Source: Corallium rubrum | Lineage: Eukaryota > Cnidaria > Anthozoa > Scleralcyonacea > Coralliidae | Direction: 5' to 3' | Assembly: GCA_964035015.1 (NCBI GenBank) | Contig: OZ035997.1 | Span: 10,991,536 to 11,055,535 of the forward strand | DNA length: 64,000 bases | Part shown: in pieces, positions 1,348 to 11,593 of the stretch | Layout of the letters: every line of letters starts with the position of its first letter | Position numbering within the stretch: the stretch's first letter is position 1 | Translations under genes and position numbers: made by a program | The notes under the pieces: generated by a model | Seen by the model: only the letters and a program-made list of their open reading frames with translations | Database searches by the model: none | What the model was told of the DNA's origin: nothing

Positions 1348-1448
1348 CAAATGGAGGTAGAGTGACTCAACAAATTTGACTAGGCATATTTATTACTATT
1401 TAGTTTCGTACCACGAGATGTGGCACTCTTCAGATAAAACGGCCTAAT
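1346..1448 (-). mobile_element. Detached 3' end of the left Penelope-like copy
   Basis: This stretch is the reverse complement of 11490-11593, the 3' end of the right Penelope-like copy. It is separated from its own body (8381-9942) by the 1449-8380 insertion. Its last four bases (TAAT, 1445-1448) are the target duplication of that insertion. Confidence 0.85.
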
Positions 1449-1732
1449 GTACGGTGGCCCGTAAGTGCAATTCACAAAATAAATGTTCAGTGCAGAACTA
1501 AAGAGTTCGATACACAATCAAATGTAAGATTTGTCGTAATACAAAACAAAAGTCAGATTGATGCGAAACTAAAGTTAATTCAGTTCAAATGGAAAGTATC
1601 TCAATGCAAAATAAAAAGTATCTCAATGCAAAATAAGAATTTATGTTCCAATGCAAAACGAGTTTTCCCAATGCAAAAGGAGAGTTTGCCCAATGCAAAA
1701 TGATTACCGCATTGCAAAGTCATTGCAGGCGC
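1449..1732 (+). repeat. Left terminal inverted repeat of the 6.9-kb element
   Basis: This 284-bp repeat matches the reverse complement of 8074-8380 with small indels. From about 1590 inward it is an array of roughly 20-bp units built on CAATGCAAAA. The outer half has looser versions. Such subterminal arrays are typical transposase-binding regions (inference). The integrase ATG lies 58 bp beyond its inner edge, so it probably also acts as promoter. Confidence 0.85.
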
Positions 1733-1789
1733 TTGTCTCAAATGCGAATTCTGCTGCAGTGTCTGCTTCACTCCGTGAAATAAACTGGT

Positions 1790-3057
1790 ATGTTTTGTCC
1801 GTTTTGTGGTGAAAGGGTCCAGAGTACGTTCAACTTTTGTGTTTTCTGCGGACGCTCGTTGCCAGTTTCTGAAGAGCAAGAAAATTGCGATTTTGAAGCA
1901 GTGTTTGTTGAAGGAGAAACTTCCGATCAACTAATTACGCGTTACTTTAGACAAGGTTTTGAATACAAAAATATCCTGTTGTTTCTATCCAAATATCATG
2001 GCATTTGTATGTCATTAAGGACGCTGAAAACTAAGCTTCGCTCGCTTGGTCTACGGAGAAGATACAACGATTACAATATTGATGATATTCGTGATCGTAT
2101 TCAACAAGAATTGGACGGTCCTGGAAGCTCTAGTGGGTATCGTTCTATTTGGCACTCATTAAAAATTCAAGGACAACAAGTTCCCAGGGAAACTGTGCGC
2201 ATTCTGGTTAAGGAACTGGACCCTGAAGGTGTGCGAGAAAGGCGAGCACAAAGTCTTCGAAGGAGAACATATCGGTCACCAGGACCAAACTATGTGTGGC
2301 ATGTAGACGGCTATGATAAGTTGAAACCTTACGGATTTCCTATACATGACTGTATTGACGGTTTTAGTAGGAAAATCCTGTGGTTGAAAGTATGTCGCAC
2401 CAACAACGACCCAGCTGTAACAGGACAGCATTATTTGAACACAGTTCAAAAGTATGGTGGCTGCCCTACTTTGCTCAGAACAGACAATGGGACTGAGAAT
2501 GTCACCATGGCAACTATGCAAGCATATTTGCGTAGTGGTGGTGATGACGAAATTGCTGGAATTAAGGCACACCGGTATGGGTCATCACCAGCCAACCAAC
2601 GCATTGAATGCTGGTGGGCTTTCTTTTGCAAGAACCGCACAAATTGGTGGATTAATTTTTTTAAAGACCTTATTGAAAGAGGTGTGTTAAATACTTCAAA
2701 TAGTTTAGAAAAAGAGTGTTGTGGCATTGTTTTGCAGAAGTTTTGCAAGAGGACTTGAATTTAGTTAAGTGGAACTGGAACACACACTATATCAGAAAGT
2801 CTCGTTTTGATACAGTTTCTGGAAGGCCAGAAGAGCTTTACTTCCTTCCCGAGTGTGCAGGTGTAGTTGACCACAAGAAAGTGGTTGATGATACCAGTTT
2901 TGAAGAAATGTCCCAATATTGCCATGATTATGAAGAGGAGAACATTTACCAGGACTACTTTGCAACTATTCGCCAGGAACTAGGCTTGGGTAAGCCTAAG
3001 AAATGGAGAGATGCTCTTTCAAATTACAATACACTGCGTGAAGTCGGTACAGGCTGA
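1790..3057 (+). pseudogene. Zinc-ribbon DDE integrase (transposase), one frameshift
   Basis: The frame opens at ATG 1790 and reads to 2758; coding resumes one frame over from about 2716 to the TGA at 3055-3057. Joined, it would be roughly 420 residues. Residues 3, 6, 17 and 20 are cysteines of a zinc ribbon (CxxC...CxxC). A helix-turn-helix-like part follows (about 40-165), then an integrase core with D173 (HVDGYD), D232 (RTDNGTEN) and E273 (NQRIECWW), so all three acidic residues are present. This matches the metazoan integrase core family common in fish and cnidarian genomes. A single base appears to be missing near 2720, in or just after the run that encodes KECC. It could be real decay or a sequencing error. 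It is the element's own transposase by position and orientation. Confidence 0.82.
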
Positions 3058-3420
3058 CAACATACAGTACAGTTTTTACTTTTTATAAAATTAATATGCT
3101 ATCCAGCAACTGAATTCCATAAGCAATGTTTTAACAATGTAAATGAATATGTCTATCCATGTTTGTCAACATCATGCTAGTTTTGACCAAAAATACCTTG
3201 GAGAAAACAATGTACAGAAACTCTAAAAGTGAAACCCTTTCCCACAAGATAAAAATACATTTTGTTGCTCTTTAATTAATATGCTCATAAATTTCAGTTA
3301 CATTAGTGTACAACAGATGGCCTTATTAAAATATCAACCTGGATAACTATAACAATAATTATTATTACTTTTTGTAATACAGATAGAGTGCAATGGCAAA
3401 CAAATTATAACGTAGAATTG
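3058..3420. other. Gap between the convergent integrase and HECT genes
   Basis: 363 bp of AT-rich sequence between the two stop codons, presumably both 3' UTRs. No conserved frame seen. Confidence 0.6.
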
Positions 3421-6400
3421 TCACAATTTACTAAACACACCACCATTCATCAATGCTGTGAGAAGATAGTGAGAAATGCTATTGCCTATTGTTTTCTCAT
3501 TTACATACAAATATAACATGTTTGAACATGTTTGTGCACCTGGTATGTTTTTAGTTTCATCATGCACAAATGTAATCGAAGGGCTCGGGTCGAACCCAGT
3601 AGAAGGCACGTTTGTTGCTCCTGTAGTAAACATTAGAATGTGGCTTGGGGTGATAGTTGGGATGAAGTTCTTCTCCTGTGTAGTTAACTCCACCCCATCA
3701 TCCTCGATATCTTCCATCAAATTTCCATCTATAAAAAAATAATAATTCTAACAGCGCCCAAAATGACAATACAGTGCAAATTTTTGAAGATCACAGATCA
3801 CATTAAAGGACATTGACAACAAAAAATTTTATTGTCTTAAATGAAGGAAACTGTTTTTACTGGCGTATTTCTTGAAATTGTTGAATTTCTTTGTTATGCA
3901 ATCAAGGCATCGAATCAATCACCTGATTGCTGTGAACTTGTTACTATACGAAATAAGCCAGTAATAAATAAAAAATGTAGAATTTACGTTATTAAACAGT
4001 TTCAGCAGTTCTTTCATTTAAGACAATATTTTTTTTGTTGCCAACACTCTTTAACAATACTGTACCCTGTATTGACTTTAGGAACGCAATAAATTTTGCC
4101 ATAACAATTTCTTCTGCTGGCCTCCGATTGCTACCAACTGGTGCAAAATCAGGCTTCATCAGACCAAGCACTTGGTTGACATCAAGTTTCTCTGCTTTAA
4201 ACTCAAATATATGCTTTGCCATCCCTTTGTTGCTTCGAATCATTTCCAGAACCTTATAAAACAAACAGTAAAATAGAAAATGAAAGTATTGTGACCTGGC
4301 TTATAAGAGCAGGGCCTGGACCTAAATATGAAAATATCTTACATCATAGTAGTTCAGGCCATCCAGAAGTTGCTGCAACATCGGCTGACACTTTATAATT
4401 ACAAAGTACTTGGCCACTTCATCGATGAAGGTGTTCCTCCTTTCAAATGGGACTGGTGCTGGCAGACCATCAATGTCAAATCTCCATTCACTGCTTACCA
4501 TGCATGCATTTACTTCATCCTGGGTTTTTGCCTCTTTCAACTAAAATCAAACAGAAGAATTATAATATTTAGTCATATTATAAGTAAAATTAAAATTTCA
4601 GCTAGGATATTTGCTGGTAGATTCAAATGAATTGGCTTACTGTACACCAAAACAGTGAATTGGTTTGAATGTGAATTTCACTTGAAAATTAACAGGTAAA
4701 ACAATTAGTTTATGGGCAGCATGTGGCCAGCATTTAATGATGTAATTGCTGTCAAGAGAATTCACAAATGCAGTTTGTCCATCAATAGAAATCCCAAGTG
4801 CAGTATGTTCTTCATCCTACTGGCAATGTGTTACTTTGTATTACCTTGAGTAATGAATCTCTAACATTTTTGTCAGGGATCTCATCAATTGTTGGCATAT
4901 AGCTGTCAAATCCTCCTTGGATACATTCACAAATGCACTTGCTGAACAGACGAGGAAGCTCCCCCCCTTGAACAACCATTGTCGCTAACATCCGACCAAC
5001 AACTTTGAATTTTCCATCCTGTAAGGCACCAACATTGCACCTAATCACATGACCACTTGTTGTATCTGGCATATAAAACACAAAATTAATCAACATTGCT
5101 ATAATTTCTATACAAATTCATGCAGGACACATCACTGTCTTTTTTATGGTGTGAAGACTTGGTGGACAAAGGGTTTGTGTTCATTTTAATTTATTGGGGA
5201 TATGAGAATGCCATTACATATACAGTTTCTAATTTTTGATTGGAAAATTGTCGAAAGGAAAATTAAACTTTCATGATAGTAAGCATACAGAGCTTCTGTT
5301 TTAATCACTGTAAATGTGGTAATACCACCATGCATTCAGATTTCAGCATGCATTGAGCACAAGTAGCCAATGATTCTCTTGTGTCTAAAAAAGAGATGTT
5401 CAATTTAAAAGTTTATATAAAATGGTATTATGACACTTTGATGGAACAAATACCAGGCAATGAAAAATAACATTATTTTGCACTTTACAGCAAAATAGCC
5501 AGCCCCATTAATCTTACTTGTCAATGTTCCACTGTTAGTCATGATAGCACCCAATAGCAAATGGAAGAATTCCCGCCTCTGCCCACCAAGATCGACAGCA
5601 TCTTCTTCAGCCTCAAAAGTTGCTAACGTTACTTGCAGCATACCAGAGCCTTTCAAGAAGCCTCTTTTCTTGAAGTATGGTAATGCTGTTGCCCAAACAC
5701 ACAATCGACTAACAACGATGGTCCGTGGGTCACCACTGACTTTTTCATTTGCATGTTGCTTTATTGTTGATTGGAAGCATTCAGTGGAGGTTTCTGAATT
5801 CGATGTTGTATGAACCTCTACAACTTCTTCTTCAGCGGGGATGTTGTTTAGGCTGTTGTCAATGGCTTGCTGCACAGCTTCATTCTCATCAAAGCCAATT
5901 GGACTGTGGAAACATAAATTTAAAAAATAAATATTGTGTACAACAAATAGTCCATTAATTATCAGCTTAGCGGACCACAAGATATCTTCAGACTTCATTT
6001 TGCAGAATAAATTCCATGGCTCCATGATGCGATGAGGGTTCGAAATAACGTGTTGTGATTCGCGAACCAAATTGTGATCTTCACGATCGGAATAGACAAT
6101 TCCCATTACAGTATAGCAAAGCATCATGGGAAATGTGGTAGGCTTCACTTGCAGCCGCAGGCGAAATGGCCGCCGCGAAGCGAGCATTTTGCTTGTGAGA
6201 GAAATTGCTTTTTTAAAGTACATTTTTTCCAGAGTATTATAGTTTAAATAAAAGTAAGTCAAGTAGGTCAAGTAAGCCAAGGTGGCCAAGTAACCCAAGT
6301 AAGCCAAGTAGGTCAAGTAAGTCAAGTAGGTCAAGTAAGTCAAGTAGGTCAAGTAAGTCAAGTAGGTCAAGTAAGTCAAGTAAGTCAAGTAAGCCAAGGT

Positions 6401-8001
6401 GGTCAAGTAAGCCAAGTAACCCAAGTAAGCCAAGTAAGTCAAGTAAGCCAAGTAGGTCAAGTAAGCCAAGTAGGTCAAGTAAGCCAAGTAGGTCAAGTAA
6501 GTCAAGTAGGTCAAGTAAGTCAAGTAGGTCAAGTAAGTCAAGTAAGGTCAAGTAAGCCAAGTAGGTCAAGTAAGCCAAGGTGGTCAAGTAAGCCAAGTAG
6601 GTCAAGTAAGCCAAGTAGGTCAAGTAAGCCAAGTAGGTCAAGTAAGCCAAGTAGGTCAAGTAAGCCAAGTAACCCAAGTAAGCCAAGTAGGACAAGTAAG
6701 TCAAGTAAGTGAAGCATGTCGAGTAAGGCAAAGTAGGGAGACTGTATGGAAGCATTACTTCAAGTAAGCTTTACTTTAGAATAATATATAGGGAGACTAT
6801 ATGGGTTGTTACCATGAAGTATATACCGCCATTTCGCCTGCAAGTGAAACCTACCACATTTCCCATGATGCTTTGCTATAATGGGAATTGTCTATTGGCA
6901 GCTGCACAGCTTTTACATCACGAGAGATTAACCTTCTTCTGTCTAACACTGTACTTACAGGAAGTCTTCTACTGTGAACAAGGATGGTTCAATTGTTGAA
7001 CAATCTTGATTGACTTGACGTGGAACAGGTTCTTCCATACAGTCATCAAGTATCTGCTCAAGATCCTCCCCAAGTCCCAATAATGTGCTGCTGGTAAGGT
7101 CAGTGATATCAACAAGGTCATCATCTGCCCGCACATCACTTTCAACATAGCAGAAATCAGTAACCTACAGTATCAGAAACAACAGGAAATTGAAAAATAA
7201 TTTATTTTTGTTTCGATTTATATTATCGTTTCATTATTCAAATGGTCTATATATCAAAATATATAAATGTTGCATTTTATTGCATTTTTTAATACTTTTT
7301 TATTTATATTGTTTTCAATTTATTTTTAGGTCAATATTAAGTTATATATTATCGTCTTACTTTTCCTTGGTCATCTTTCTTCTCTTCAACTGGGCAAAGA
7401 AAATGTTTATCCTGGAAAAGGCTTTTCCCAAACCTTCTTTATACCCGCTTAAGGTGAATTGCTCGTCTGTCCCAGGAATTGTGCGGGCCAATTTACCGTC
7501 TGGATACACCAGTACGTATCCCCGTTCACGGGAAAATTCCCGGTCGTAGTCTTCCCACTTCTTCAACGATTTCTCCAGCAGTTCGTCGTATCCGCATTCC
7601 TTAGGGATTTTAACTGGGAAATTTTTACCGAAGACTTTCTTCGGCACTCCACATTCGTATTCCATAAGCCCCACGTTTATCAGAACGTCCTTGTTGTCTG
7701 AAGGCTTCGCGCCTGTGCTGGCTGTTGTCGTCTTTCTCTTTTTCGATTTCGGCTGAAAATGGGATTGCCGCTCATTTTCTTTCTCGCGGCTAAAAGCTTC
7801 GAAGGAGCTTGGTCGTGGCCGTTGGCCTTTACCTCGTGTGGTCAAAACACCAGCCGGCGATGGCGTCGGGCCCGTTGACGCTGTCGTGTCGCTAGAAGAC
7901 GGTGTTGATCGTGAACTAGCACCATCATTTCTCTTCGTCCCACAGCAAGGGCAATAAACAAACGCTTCATCCAATCTGGCTCCACAGTTTGCGCAAAACA
8001 T
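3421..8001 (-). CDS. Element-borne zinc-ribbon/UIM/HECT E3 ubiquitin ligase, seven exons
   Basis: Exons on the minus strand: 8001-7361, 7138-6959 (or from 7164), 5903-5518, 5065-4845, 4540-4343, 4252-4066 and 3728-3421. All junctions are GT-AG and phases agree from exon 2 to the stop. The exon 1/2 join fits only with the acceptor at 7139. The model gives about 706 residues. Residues 3, 6, 17 and 20 are zinc-ribbon cysteines; a basic, Ser/Thr-rich linker follows. Residues 279-292 (DENEAVQQAIDNSL) fit a ubiquitin-interacting motif. From about 335 comes a HECT domain with the N-lobe signature around DAVDLGGQRREFF. The C-lobe holds the catalytic cysteine in AQTCSN, residue 672, 34 from the end, the normal position. 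The closest known relatives are the G2E3-like HECT proteins. The usual LPxY-like motif after the cysteine reads LYLYV. A small repeat element sits in intron 2 without touching the coding exons. Confidence 0.8.
6091..6896. mobile_element. Small inverted-repeat element inside an intron of the HECT gene
   Basis: 6091-6180 and 6826-6896 are inverted copies; they share AATAGACAATTCCC and TTTCCCATGATGCTTTGC. Between them lies a 10-bp minisatellite. No clear target duplication was found. Confidence 0.65.
6245..6735. repeat. 10-bp minisatellite, AAGTAGGTCA / AAGTAAGCCA units
   Basis: About 49 units of a 10-bp repeat alternate between GTCAAGTAAG and GCCAAGTAGG variants. Read on the minus strand it gives spurious frames of Tyr-Leu-Thr/Ala repeats, which are not a protein. 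Confidence 0.92.
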
Positions 8002-8073
8002 TTATAAATAATTTATGAACAAACTACGACATCGAAATCAAATTTCTCTGTTTGAACTGAAGTTGGGTCGAGC

Positions 8074-8380
8074 GCGCCTGCAATGACTTTGCAATGCGGT
8101 AATCATTTTGCATTGGGCAAACTCTCCTTTTGCATTGGAAAACTCGTTTTGCATTGGAACATAAATTCTTATTTTGCATTGGGCAAACTCCTTTTGCATT
8201 GCAACACAAATTGTTATTTTGCATCGAGGTGCTTTTTATTTTGCATTGAGATCGTTTTAGTTTCGCATCGAACTGACTATTGTTTTGCATTACGATGAAT
8301 CTTACCTTTGATTGTGCATTGGAGTCTCTAGTTTTGCACTGAACATTCATTTTGTGAATTGCACTTACGGGCCACCGTAC
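8074..8380 (-). repeat. Right terminal inverted repeat of the 6.9-kb element
   Basis: This 307-bp partner of 1449-1732 has about one extra CAATGCAAAA-type unit. The HECT gene ATG (8001) lies 72 bp inside it, mirroring the integrase end. Confidence 0.85.
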
Positions 8381-9942
8381 TAATGCCTGACAGCTAAAAC
8401 TTACAATATTTTGTACAAACAGATGACGCTTTAATCCTATTTACCATGCAAGCTAATCAATTATCACCTTATCATTATGTTGACACCACGTGGAAATACC
8501 AAACTTAAGCGGTAATTTTAAAATAGTTAGAGTTCGTTAAGAGTTAATTAAAAGGAATTTTTTAGCATGTCTGCATGAAGAAACTAGTTCATTGCGTTTG
8601 TTTAGGGTAGCCATAGTAGGTTTACATATGATAAAGTATTTTTCCCATAAACAGAGATTACATCTATTTGAAGCGCAATTATAAGGCTTAGCTCGCTTCA
8701 ATATTTTCCAATTAATATTAAACTCAACATTGTTATTTTTCAAGTCCCAAATGTGTTTACTCAGCTCTGTGGAGTTCTGTTTCTTATGAGAATTAAATGA
8801 TGCCTTGTGGTTCGTAAATCTGGTCTTAAAAAGAGTTCTCAGTAAGCCCAACATACGTTTGTGGAGGTCTGTTATCTTTAGTGCTAACCGTAGCTTGGTA
8901 TACAACAGACTCAACAAGACATTTCCCTGGCATTGGGCACTCGTCCTTTTTCCTACAATTGCATGTTTTTTGACTATCTACATTGCTCGTTTGGGACAGT
9001 CTGGTTTTGTTGTGTCCATCGATAGTTTGCTTAATGTTTGGCATACAACTGTAGCTTATCTTGACCGTGTTGCGGTTAAAGATTTTATGTAGAATGTGCC
9101 CTGTGGGGAATTCTTCGTCAAGGATCTTTAAGAATGATTGTCCAACATTAGTAGAAACATTCTTGCTGAAGGGTGGGTTGTACCATATAATGTTGCGTTT
9201 ACGTCGTGTCCTGTTTTGTTTAGTGGTTTGATTTAGCGGATGTTTGAATTTGAGTTGGTGTGTGTAACCGCTTTTGTCTAGAGCTTTCTGGTATAATGGT
9301 ACGGCGTGTAGAAACGATTCCTGGTCAGATGATATCTCAGTGAGGCGTTTGTTGATGGATAATGGGATATTGTCTAGTATTCTAGGTGGGTGGTTAGACT
9401 TGTTATGCGCGTAGAGAGGTATGTTGTTAGGTTTAGAGTACGGCTGGTATTTCCCGCTAGACAAATTCAAGGTCACATCAAGGAAATTTATGATCTTCTT
9501 GTTAGCTTCGATAGTAATTTTTAGACCATGGTTGTTAAAGATGGCACAGAGATCTTTTTTAATCATTTCTATTTCACGCGGTGTTGCTTTAAGAATACCC
9601 AGACCATCGTCTCTGTATAAGCCGAAATTATTGCCATGCTTTGTCGTAATAAGATGTAGTAAAAAAGAACCGACTAGTTTGCATGACTCGGCACCGTCGA
9701 AGCTACCCATTGTGACGTCGAAGAGGTTAGATGAAGCCTTTTTGCCCCAGTGGCTTCCTGAATGATGAAGGCACGATTTCTTCGCGTGTAAAATAATTTG
9801 CCGTTCTTCGTCCGTGATGTTGTCGTAGTTTGATGCGAAATCTAACGCTGCATTGAGTAGATCTTTTGAAATGGATGGATAAAAATCGACTACGTCAAAT
9901 GCAATAAATGAATATTGATTTTTGTTTGAGATGTTGTTAAAC
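8381..9942 (-). mobile_element. Left Penelope-like retroelement copy (body)
   Basis: 5'-truncated copy reading leftward, nearly identical to the right copy (9943-11593) in opposite orientation. Its last ~100 bp lie at 1346-1448 beyond the 6.9-kb insertion. TAAT at 8381-8384 is the right-hand target duplication. Confidence 0.85.
8537..9942 (-). pseudogene. Penelope-like reverse transcriptase/GIY-YIG, frameshifted copy
   Basis: The frame runs from the centre of the palindrome leftward through RT motifs DVVDFYPSIS and YRDDGLGI, a Cys-rich linker (CNCRKKDECPMPGKC) and the start of the GIY-YIG domain. Near 8827-8831 it has five T's (minus strand) where the right copy has four, which shifts the frame in the GIY-YIG domain. 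The remaining domain continues in the next frame to a TAA at 8537-8539. The 5' part of the RT is missing. Confidence 0.82.
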
Positions 9943-11593
9943 CATCTCAAACAAAAATCAATATTCATTTATTGCATTTGACGTAGTCGATTTTTATCCA
10001 TCCATTTCAAAAGATCTACTCAATGCAGCGTTAGATTTCGCATCAAACTACGACAACATCACGGACGAAGAACGGCAAATTATTTTACACGCGAAGAAAT
10101 CGTGCCTTCATCATTCAGGAAGCCACTGGGGCAAAAAGGCTTCATCTAACCTCTTCGACGTCACAATGGGTAGCTTCGACGGTGCCGAGTCATGCGAACT
10201 AGTCGGTTCTTTTTTACTACATCTTATTACGACAAAGCATGGCAATAATTTCGGCTTATACAGAGACGATGGTCTGGGTATTCTTAAAGCAACACCGCGT
10301 GAAATAGAAATGATTAAAAAAGATCTCTGTGCCATCTTTAACAACCATGGTCTAAAAATTACTATCGAAGCTAACAAGAAGATCATAAATTTCCTTGATG
10401 TGACCTTGAATTTGTCTAGCGGGAAATACCAGCCGTACTCTAAACCTAACAACATACCTCTCTACGTGCATAACAAGTCTAACCACCCACCTAGAATACT
10501 AGACAATATCCCATTATCCATCAACAAACGCCTCACTGAGATATCATCTGACCAGGAATCGTTTCTACACGCCGTACCATTATACCAGAAAGCTCTAGAC
10601 AAAAGCGGTTACACACACCAACTCAAATTCAAACATCCGCTAAATCAAACCACTAAACAAAACAGGACACGACGTAAACGCAACATTATATGGTACAACC
10701 CACCCTTCAGCAAGAATGTTTCTACTAATGTTGGACAATCATTCTTAAAGATCCTTGACGAAGAATTCCCCACAGGGCACATTCTACATAAAATCTTTAA
10801 CCGCAACACGGTCAAGATAAGCTACAGTTGTATGCCAAACATTAAGCAAACTATCGATGGACACAACAAAACCAGACTGTCCCAAACGAGCAATGTAGAT
10901 AGTCAAAAAACATGCAATTGTAGGAAAAGGGACGAGTGCCCAATGCCAGGGAAATGTCTTGTTGAGTCTGTTGTATACCAAGCTACGGTTAGCACTAAAG
11001 ATAACAGACCTCCACAAACGTATGTTGGGCTTACTGAGAACTCTTTTAAGACCAGATTTACGAACCACAAGGCATCATTTAATTCTCATAAGAAACAGAA
11101 CTCCACAGAGCTGAGTAAACACATTTGGGACTTGAAAAATAACAATGTTGAGTTTAATATTAATTGGAAAATATTGAAGCGAGCTAAGCCTTATAATTGC
11201 GCTTCAAATAGATGTAATCTCTGTTTATGGGAAAAATACTTTATCATATGTAAACCTACTATGGCTACCCTAAACAAACGCAATGAACTAGTTTCTTCAT
11301 GCAGACATGCTAAAAAATTCCTTTTAATTAACTCTTAACGAACTCTAACTATTTTAAAATTACCGCTTAAGTTTGGTATTTCCACGTGGTGTCAACATAA
11401 TGATAAGGTGATAATTGATTAGCTTGCATGGTAAATAGGATTAAAGCGTCATCTGTTTGTACAAAATATTGTAAGTTTTAGCTGTCAGGCATTAGGCCGT
11501 TTTATCTGAAGAGTGCCACATCTCGTGGTACGAAACTAAATAGTAATAAATATGCCTAGTCAAATTTGTTGAGTCACTCTACCTCCATTTGTT
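9943..11593 (+). mobile_element. Right Penelope-like retroelement copy
   Basis: It mirrors the left copy about a 9-bp spacer at 9934-9942. Truncated at its 5' side in the RT domain, it ends with a 250-bp 3' non-coding tail. The uninterrupted TAAT site used by the 6.9-kb element in the sister copy lies in this tail. Identity between arms is high (a handful of differences over 1.5 kb), so the inverted pair is young or was recently copied. Confidence 0.85.
9944..11338 (+). CDS. Penelope-like RT and GIY-YIG endonuclease, 5'-truncated
   Basis: Open for 464 codons from the palindrome centre to TAA 11336-11338, with no native start codon. Order: RT motif with DVVDFYPSIS, the catalytic YRDDGLGI, the thumb region, a Cys cluster (CNCRKRDECPMPGKC) and a GIY-YIG nuclease. 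In the nuclease TYVGLTE, FKTRFTNHK and ELSKHIW are visible; CNLCLWEKY and a short tail follow. RT followed by GIY-YIG is the hallmark of Penelope-like elements, which use the nuclease for target-primed integration. The RT N-terminus is absent, so this copy cannot be autonomous. Confidence 0.85.
   Translation: MSNKNQYSFIAFDVVDFYPSISKDLLNAALDFASNYDNITDEERQIILHAKKSCLHHSGSHWGKKASSNLFDVTMGSFDGAESCELVGSFLLHLITTKHGNNFGLYRDDGLGILKATPREIEMIKKDLCAIFNNHGLKITIEANKKIINFLDVTLNLSSGKYQPYSKPNNIPLYVHNKSNHPPRILDNIPLSINKRLTEISSDQESFLHAVPLYQKALDKSGYTHQLKFKHPLNQTTKQNRTRRKRNIIWYNPPFSKNVSTNVGQSFLKILDEEFPTGHILHKIFNRNTVKISYSCMPNIKQTIDGHNKTRLSQTSNVDSQKTCNCRKRDECPMPGKCLVESVVYQATVSTKDNRPPQTYVGLTENSFKTRFTNHKASFNSHKKQNSTELSKHIWDLKNNNVEFNINWKILKRAKPYNCASNRCNLCLWEKYFIICKPTMATLNKRNELVSSCRHAKKFLLINS

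Follow-up and report, generated by a model that had tools for sequence, protein, structure and literature searches.

A DNA transposon with two convergent genes

In a 64,000-nucleotide stretch of the Corallium rubrum genome, hereafter the window (GenBank assembly GCA_964035015.1, contig OZ035997.1, forward-strand positions 10,991,536 to 11,055,535), we examined a DNA transposon that carries, between its terminal inverted repeats (TIRs), a gene for a DDE transposase and a gene for a HECT ubiquitin ligase. The element occupies window positions 1450-8379 (6930 bp) and has the ends TACGG..CCGTA. Its left TIR (1450..1732, plus strand) begins TACGGTGGCCCG and contains AATGCA-type units with a best self-match at a 22-bp shift, and its right TIR (8074..8379, minus strand) ends CGGGCCACCGTA, with best self-matches at 44- and 22-bp shifts. 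The arms pair as 1449-1589/8240-8380 (85%), 1593-1687/8163-8257 (86%) and 1664-1732/8074-8142 (99%), and the two ends are identical at 48 of their first 50 bases. The units spaced at 22 bp are candidate binding sites.

The transposase gene (1790..3057, plus strand) comprises two overlapping open frames (1790-2758 and 2716-3057) with one frame break. Its first frame, on which the profile was scored, matches PF24764 (rva_4 integrase core) at 1.7e-24. The catalytic triad consists of D at 2306-2308, D at 2483-2485 and E at 2606-2608, with 40 residues separating the second D from the E, and an N-terminal zinc ribbon is recognizable below the Pfam cut-off. Convergent with this gene, and likewise inside the TIRs, the HECT gene (3421..8001, minus strand) has seven exons including the stop codon (8001-7361, 7164-6959, 5903-5518, 5065-4845, 4540-4343, 4252-4066 and 3728-3421), the first of which has its frame broken once. 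We picked the exon borders by hand from GT/AG signals and from similarity to a related element on C28. Exons 2-7 match PF00632 at 1.1e-14 (55.2 bits, compared with 45.4 bits for the C28 protein and a curated cut-off of 23.9). The product begins with a CxxC..CxxC zinc ribbon, also below the Pfam cut-off, followed by an uncharacterized conserved domain and the HECT domain, in which alignment places the catalytic cysteine codon at 3526..3528 (minus strand; QTCSNMLYL). From the domain and this cysteine, formation of a ubiquitin thioester and ligase activity are predicted; DNA binding by the N-terminal ribbon is putative. Because each gene has one frame break, the window copy may be inactive, or assembly indels may lie behind the breaks. 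The second HECT intron also holds a nested inverted-repeat element (6091-6905; arms 94% identical over 49 bp) that encloses a 9-bp minisatellite at ~6245-6720.

The insertion site is defined by flank comparison. The hexamer CTAATG stands immediately outside both ends of the element (1444..1449 and 8380..8385), and comparison of the flanks with the inverted repeat next to them locates an empty site at 11490..11495 (minus strand), in the sister arm of the adjacent palindrome, where both flanks meet across exactly one CTAATG; the insertion therefore duplicated six bases. Consistently, the flanking inverted-repeat arms share a 6-base overlap at the insertion point. The empty site has neither gene, which agrees with the original prediction, made from the letters alone, of a DNA transposon with a HECT gene on board. 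That prediction had set the borders at 1449..8380 from the TIRs, a TAAT duplication and the empty site; all three kinds of mark hold up, with the borders shifting to 1450-8379 and TAAT giving way to the six bases that the empty site displays. The insertion probably came after duplication of the palindrome arms, as the empty sister arm suggests. The palindrome itself (8829-11047) has 1105-bp arms that are 100% complementary and 9 bases apart, with the transposon in one side only, and represents either a real inverted dimer or a fold-back assembly. Its Penelope-like label comes from the earlier reading alone.

Assignment to the IS3EU superfamily

IS3EU (IS3EU/GingerRoot) is a Repbase superfamily characterized, in the passages of PMC10045372 and PMC12730594 that describe it, by TA..TA ends, usually 6-bp target duplications and an integrase-type DDE transposase. 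The window element has all of these features in its termini, in its 6-bp duplication with an empty site and in its DDE transposase. Its Pfam list, which has zinc ribbon hits, contains no HHCC model, as the IS3EU description requires, and its TACGG..CCGTA termini fit the TAYGG..CCRTA form seen in fungal IS3EU. By these published descriptions, the element is assigned to IS3EU. An integrase-type transposon had been foreseen from the outset, and PF24764 bears this out; the 4-5 bp duplications expected along with it were not found, and the ends and 6-bp duplication identify IS3EU instead.

Two other classes were considered. Ginger1 and Ginger2 elements share an integrase-like transposase with the window element; according to the part of PMC10045372 that treats them, their duplications measure 4 or 5 bp, and the 6-bp duplication rules out membership. 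Only two genes are recognized across the 6.9 kb between the TIRs, and this excludes the Polinton/Maverick class, whose members encode packaging proteins and DNA polymerase B as well as an integrase.

Two-gene elements recur across the genome

Including the window element, we bordered 11 elements from seven families in this genome that have both ends, a transposase and a HECT gene, and the two genes are convergent in 11/11. All 11 share the TACGG..CCGTA termini. The 6-bp duplication is perfect in nine of them and matches at five of six bases in the other two, so that the several full-length two-gene copies with fresh duplications proposed as a check do exist. The window family has a second copy on C52 (1067 bases matched at 99.5%), truncated within the transposase. 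A second family, 70% identical to the window element, has members on C28, C39, C34, C8, C15, C13 and C14. Duplications in this family read GATCCC (C28:9596787-9606777), GAGAAA (C39), CCTTTT (C8:27.98 Mb) and TATATA (C34, within a TA repeat and so little informative), with five of six bases matching at C15:1.0 Mb. The third family (C13:9580718-9592387) is flanked by ATTAAC. Four further divergent families are bordered at C1:2.37 Mb (CCCATC), C15:14.3 Mb (CTTATG), C255 (five of six, amid TA repeats and so little informative) and C8:39.56 Mb (L067; AATTTA), the last with TIRs in the form of long repeat arrays. A second end was looked for and not found in the copies at C13:12.81 Mb, C14 and C82:911 kb, and the copies at C13:12.81 Mb and C14 were left out of the 11 two-ended elements. 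L015 and L018 (C13 and C14) have identical flanks and are probably haplotigs or a segmental duplication.

Intact genes persist in several copies. The transposase is intact (426 aa) on C34 and C39, and an intact spliced HECT protein (703 aa) is encoded on C28, whose own transposase is broken; on C255 and at C15:14.3 Mb, both frames are open within one copy. In addition, a second PF24764 branch of ~500 aa (L064, L068 and L069) lies convergent with HECT proteins that have SAC(T/L) around the cysteine.

HECT and transposase genes are paired genome-wide

To count pairs, we clustered 85 matches to the HECT protein, 131 to the Pfam HECT model, 98 to the transposase, 150 to PF24764 and 12 of 59 rows for transposase DNA, which gave at least 145 HECT loci and at least 256 transposase loci; neighbors may be merged. 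The pairing counts are lower bounds because the search scored only part of the candidates (150 of 1351 for PF24764). Among the matches listed, 61/145 HECT loci have a transposase within 10 kb (≤10 kb), compared with ~1.1% under random placement, and these near pairs are convergent in 58 cases, divergent in two and in the same direction in one (two HECT matches on C79 were merged into one locus, counted as divergent). With the element's own HECT protein as query, 29/39 HECT loci have a convergent transposase and 10/39 have none among the matches listed. In the reverse direction, 63/256 transposase loci have a HECT match among those listed. The lower-bound character of these counts is illustrated by the HECT locus at C15:15.3 Mb (L068), which had no listed partner and proved to have a transposase when its sequence was read. 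The top-scoring Pfam HECT match (C1:41.85 Mb) has no transposase nearby among the matches listed and is presumably a host gene. Chance neighborhood of the two genes is ruled out by this pairing together with the empty site.

In loci chosen by transposase DNA similarity alone, a HECT piece lies beside the transposase in 23/29. No HECT piece was found at L010, L023, L024, L027, L028 and L038, and L021 was excluded from this set (a TIR and a HECT exon, with the transposase absent). A single family accounts for six of these 23 (L032-L037), and its HECT piece is a weak one of 78 residues (E 7e-5) in which the cysteine region is kept; two re-scored copies reach 18.5 bits against the HECT profile. 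Elements with these TIRs and this integrase that never carry HECT had been named as the outcome that would speak against a two-gene transposon, and that pattern was not seen.

The two genes co-diverge under constraint

We compared the two proteins across 11 pairs, of which eight have a ribbon-type HECT protein and three are second-branch elements without demonstrated borders (C1_48M, C15_15M and C82_1.58M entered the trees though their TIRs were not demonstrated). Open frames were read from one stop codon to the next; the transposase of C15_15M enters as a 258-aa fragment, the window HECT lacks exon 1, the third-family HECT lacks its N-terminus, and the C28 transposase is represented by its intact C34 sibling in distances, trees and substitution rates. 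HECT and transposase distances are strongly correlated (Mantel r 0.84, n = 11; 0/20000 permutations as high), also among the eight ribbon-type pairs (r 0.80; 6/20000). IQ-TREE recovers four groups in both trees, namely window + C28 + third family, C255 + C82_911k, C8_39M + C1_2.4M and the three second-branch elements, with ultrafast support of 96 to 100 for HECT and 81 to 100 for the transposase.

Catalytic residues are conserved throughout. The HECT cysteine is kept in 11/11 aligned proteins, as are the second D and the E of the transposase, and the first D is present in 10/11 (the C15_15M fragment does not reach it). Between the window and C28, HECT has a pN of 0.21 at a pS saturated at 0.81; between C1_48M and C15_15M, dN/dS is 0.11 for HECT and 0.07 for the transposase. 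Across four pairs, pN/pS is 0.26, 0.29, 0.44 and 0.56 for HECT versus 0.23, 0.21, 0.30 and 0.36 for the transposase, with pN and pN/pS values rough owing to saturation.

A zinc ribbon occurs in both proteins

The N-terminal zinc ribbon motif is present in the HECT protein of 8/8 families so grouped and in the transposase of 7/8. On C255, the TIR (~635 bp, 95.6% identity) encodes identical first 40 residues of the transposase and the HECT protein, and P0051 (424 aa, PF24764), which comes from a separate dataset, is 100% identical to the C255 HECT protein along 5% of its length, namely the ribbon. The C255 element thus illustrates how ligase and transposase can acquire a common N-terminus once a terminal repeat has extended into both genes. 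The more general proposition that ribbons are more alike within than between elements was not supported: the permutation fraction is 0.015 with C255 and 0.11 without it.

A CUE (ubiquitin-binding) domain scores above the Pfam cut-off in 2/7 HECT-type proteins of one set and in 2/4 HECT-type P entries (P0129-P0132). P0139 is a relative of the HECT N-lobe preceded by a RING-H2 finger (PF13639). HECT relatives with the N-terminal part in common were found in Dendronephthya gigantea, Archocentrus centrarchus and Takifugu rubripes, the fish ones (P0003 and P0004) as proteins alone; transposase relatives occur in Dendronephthya, Montipora and Oculina.

Discussion

The HECT gene is an integral component of IS3EU-type elements in this genome, a structural conclusion that we hold with near certainty. 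The original prediction had left the gene as either cargo or part of the element; it is part of it, and an old, co-diverging component instead of one-off cargo. Because related pairs recur across many transposons in the genome, the ligase appears to be an old working part and not baggage, and because of constraint and co-divergence it probably serves the element. The two functions suggested in the original prediction, control of the transposase level and disarming of a host restriction factor, are conjectural. Our preferred reading, to which we give a probability of roughly 0.6, is that of a two-gene IS3EU transposon whose gene pair has been co-inherited across families and whose ligase would be targeted by its ribbon to the element's own ends and tag the proteins bound there. 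In such a mechanism, the N-terminal ribbon, like that of the transposase, would bring the ligase to the ends, and proteins bound to element DNA would be tagged for removal. The likeliest targets would be host silencing or repair factors, by analogy with the TET/JBP gene of fungal IS3EU elements; the transposase complex after strand transfer would be a less likely one. Taken by itself, the combination of ribbon-based local targeting and removal of host silencing factors has a little less than an even chance of being correct.

Several observations weigh against this preferred reading. Among the matches listed, 84/145 HECT loci have no transposase nearby, some of which are presumably host genes. 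For the second branch, no TIRs were found in the stretch around L071 and L064 (C1:48.4 Mb), where the HECT side may hold further exons. Neither IQ-TREE tree settles the joining order of the groups or the placement of C15_14M, and deeper FastTree nodes conflict (HECT 0.946 vs transposase 0.867). Because the deeper order is unsettled or conflicting, our comparisons demonstrate co-inheritance at the level of the groups, short of the oldest splits. HECT evolves faster than the transposase in 4/4 pairs. With C255 excluded, ribbon likeness within elements is not significant; the transposase open frame at C8:39.56 Mb lacks the ribbon, though its HECT protein has one; and Pfam finds no zinc ribbon in the two second-branch HECT proteins examined, which means that targeting by the ribbon cannot account for all of the pairs.

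The same data bear on what the ligase might otherwise be. It could regulate transposition by ubiquitinating the transposase or the strand-transfer complex, thereby limiting copy-number damage or aiding disassembly after integration. Co-divergence, the similar N-terminal ribbons and the constraint on both genes would fit such a direct partnership; self-limitation, on general grounds, is usually only weakly selected on transposons, and we judge this explanation, the main rival to our preferred mechanism, unlikely, though it deserves consideration. Long cargo is known in transposons, and a host HECT gene could have been captured once and carried along with no benefit to the element. The HECT genes without a listed transposase nearby, presumably host genes, would offer a source, and the weaker constraint on HECT than on the transposase in all four pairs would be expected of a passenger. 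Low pN at saturated pS, a cysteine kept in every aligned protein, matching groups in both trees and presence in seven bordered families argue against it and make a passenger highly improbable. The seven exons of the window HECT gene, a number like that of many host genes, would suit a host gene that had received transposase copies within it or next to it; for the 11 two-ended elements, this is excluded by TIRs around both genes, by the duplications and by an empty site that lacks both, which leaves it next to no probability.

Beyond the preferred reading, we tentatively propose that HECT may have been an integral second enzyme already in the ancestor of a large IS3EU branch of animals, perhaps from corals to fish; the ligase would share the transposase's DNA-targeting ribbon and would strip host silencing proteins from the element by local ubiquitination. 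In this ancestral-enzyme scenario, the ribbons would stay alike in some families as terminal repeats grow into both genes. If it is true, the element bears a self-targeted ubiquitin weapon. Eukaryotic DNA transposons are mostly viewed as requiring a transposase alone, and a ligase retained beside it across families suggests a tool of the element's own against host control or for remodeling its own complexes. Part of the repetitive HECT genes that annotations of cnidarian and fish genomes treat as host genes may be transposon-borne, and these elements offer a tractable example of a mobile element exploiting the ubiquitin system.

Comparison with known systems

A literature text search whose ranking covered part of the matches found no paper linking IS3EU and HECT, and none combining transposon-encoded, HECT and ubiquitin ligase; two papers, with titles on a fungal pathogen and on buffalo mastitis, contain both IS3EU and ubiquitin. 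Neither HECT nor ubiquitin occurs in the main text of PMC10045372 or PMC12730594. The HECT-bearing IS3EU element is thus apparently a new variation on a known superfamily, and Repbase may itself describe the combination. A giant-virus HECT gene is mentioned in the relevant part of PMC6027436 and is not transposon-borne.

Compared with animal HECT E3 ligases such as AREL1 and UBR5, the element protein has the HECT domain with a TC(S/F)N-type cysteine motif in common; it is distant from them (best PDB sequence match, E 0.034) and set apart by its zinc ribbon and uncharacterized N-terminal domain. Some Ginger1 and Ginger2 elements carry ubiquitin-like protease domains. Further parallels are fungal. 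In the sections of PMC12730594 on rust fungi, TET-bearing IS3EU elements have TAYGG..CCRTA ends and encode an alpha-kinase oriented opposite to their transposase, whereas the window element has HECT in the place of the kinase. According to the same sections, the TET/JBP gene is thought to counter silencing, TET/JBP-bearing transposons span several superfamilies, IS3EU included, and in one fungal group the accessory gene moved between superfamilies (PMC12730594). Both systems, as far as those sections describe the fungal one, consist of DNA transposons that retain an accessory enzyme plausibly acting on host silencing; they differ in the enzyme and in its history, the accessory gene being mobile among superfamilies in fungi and grouping with its transposase in the coral.

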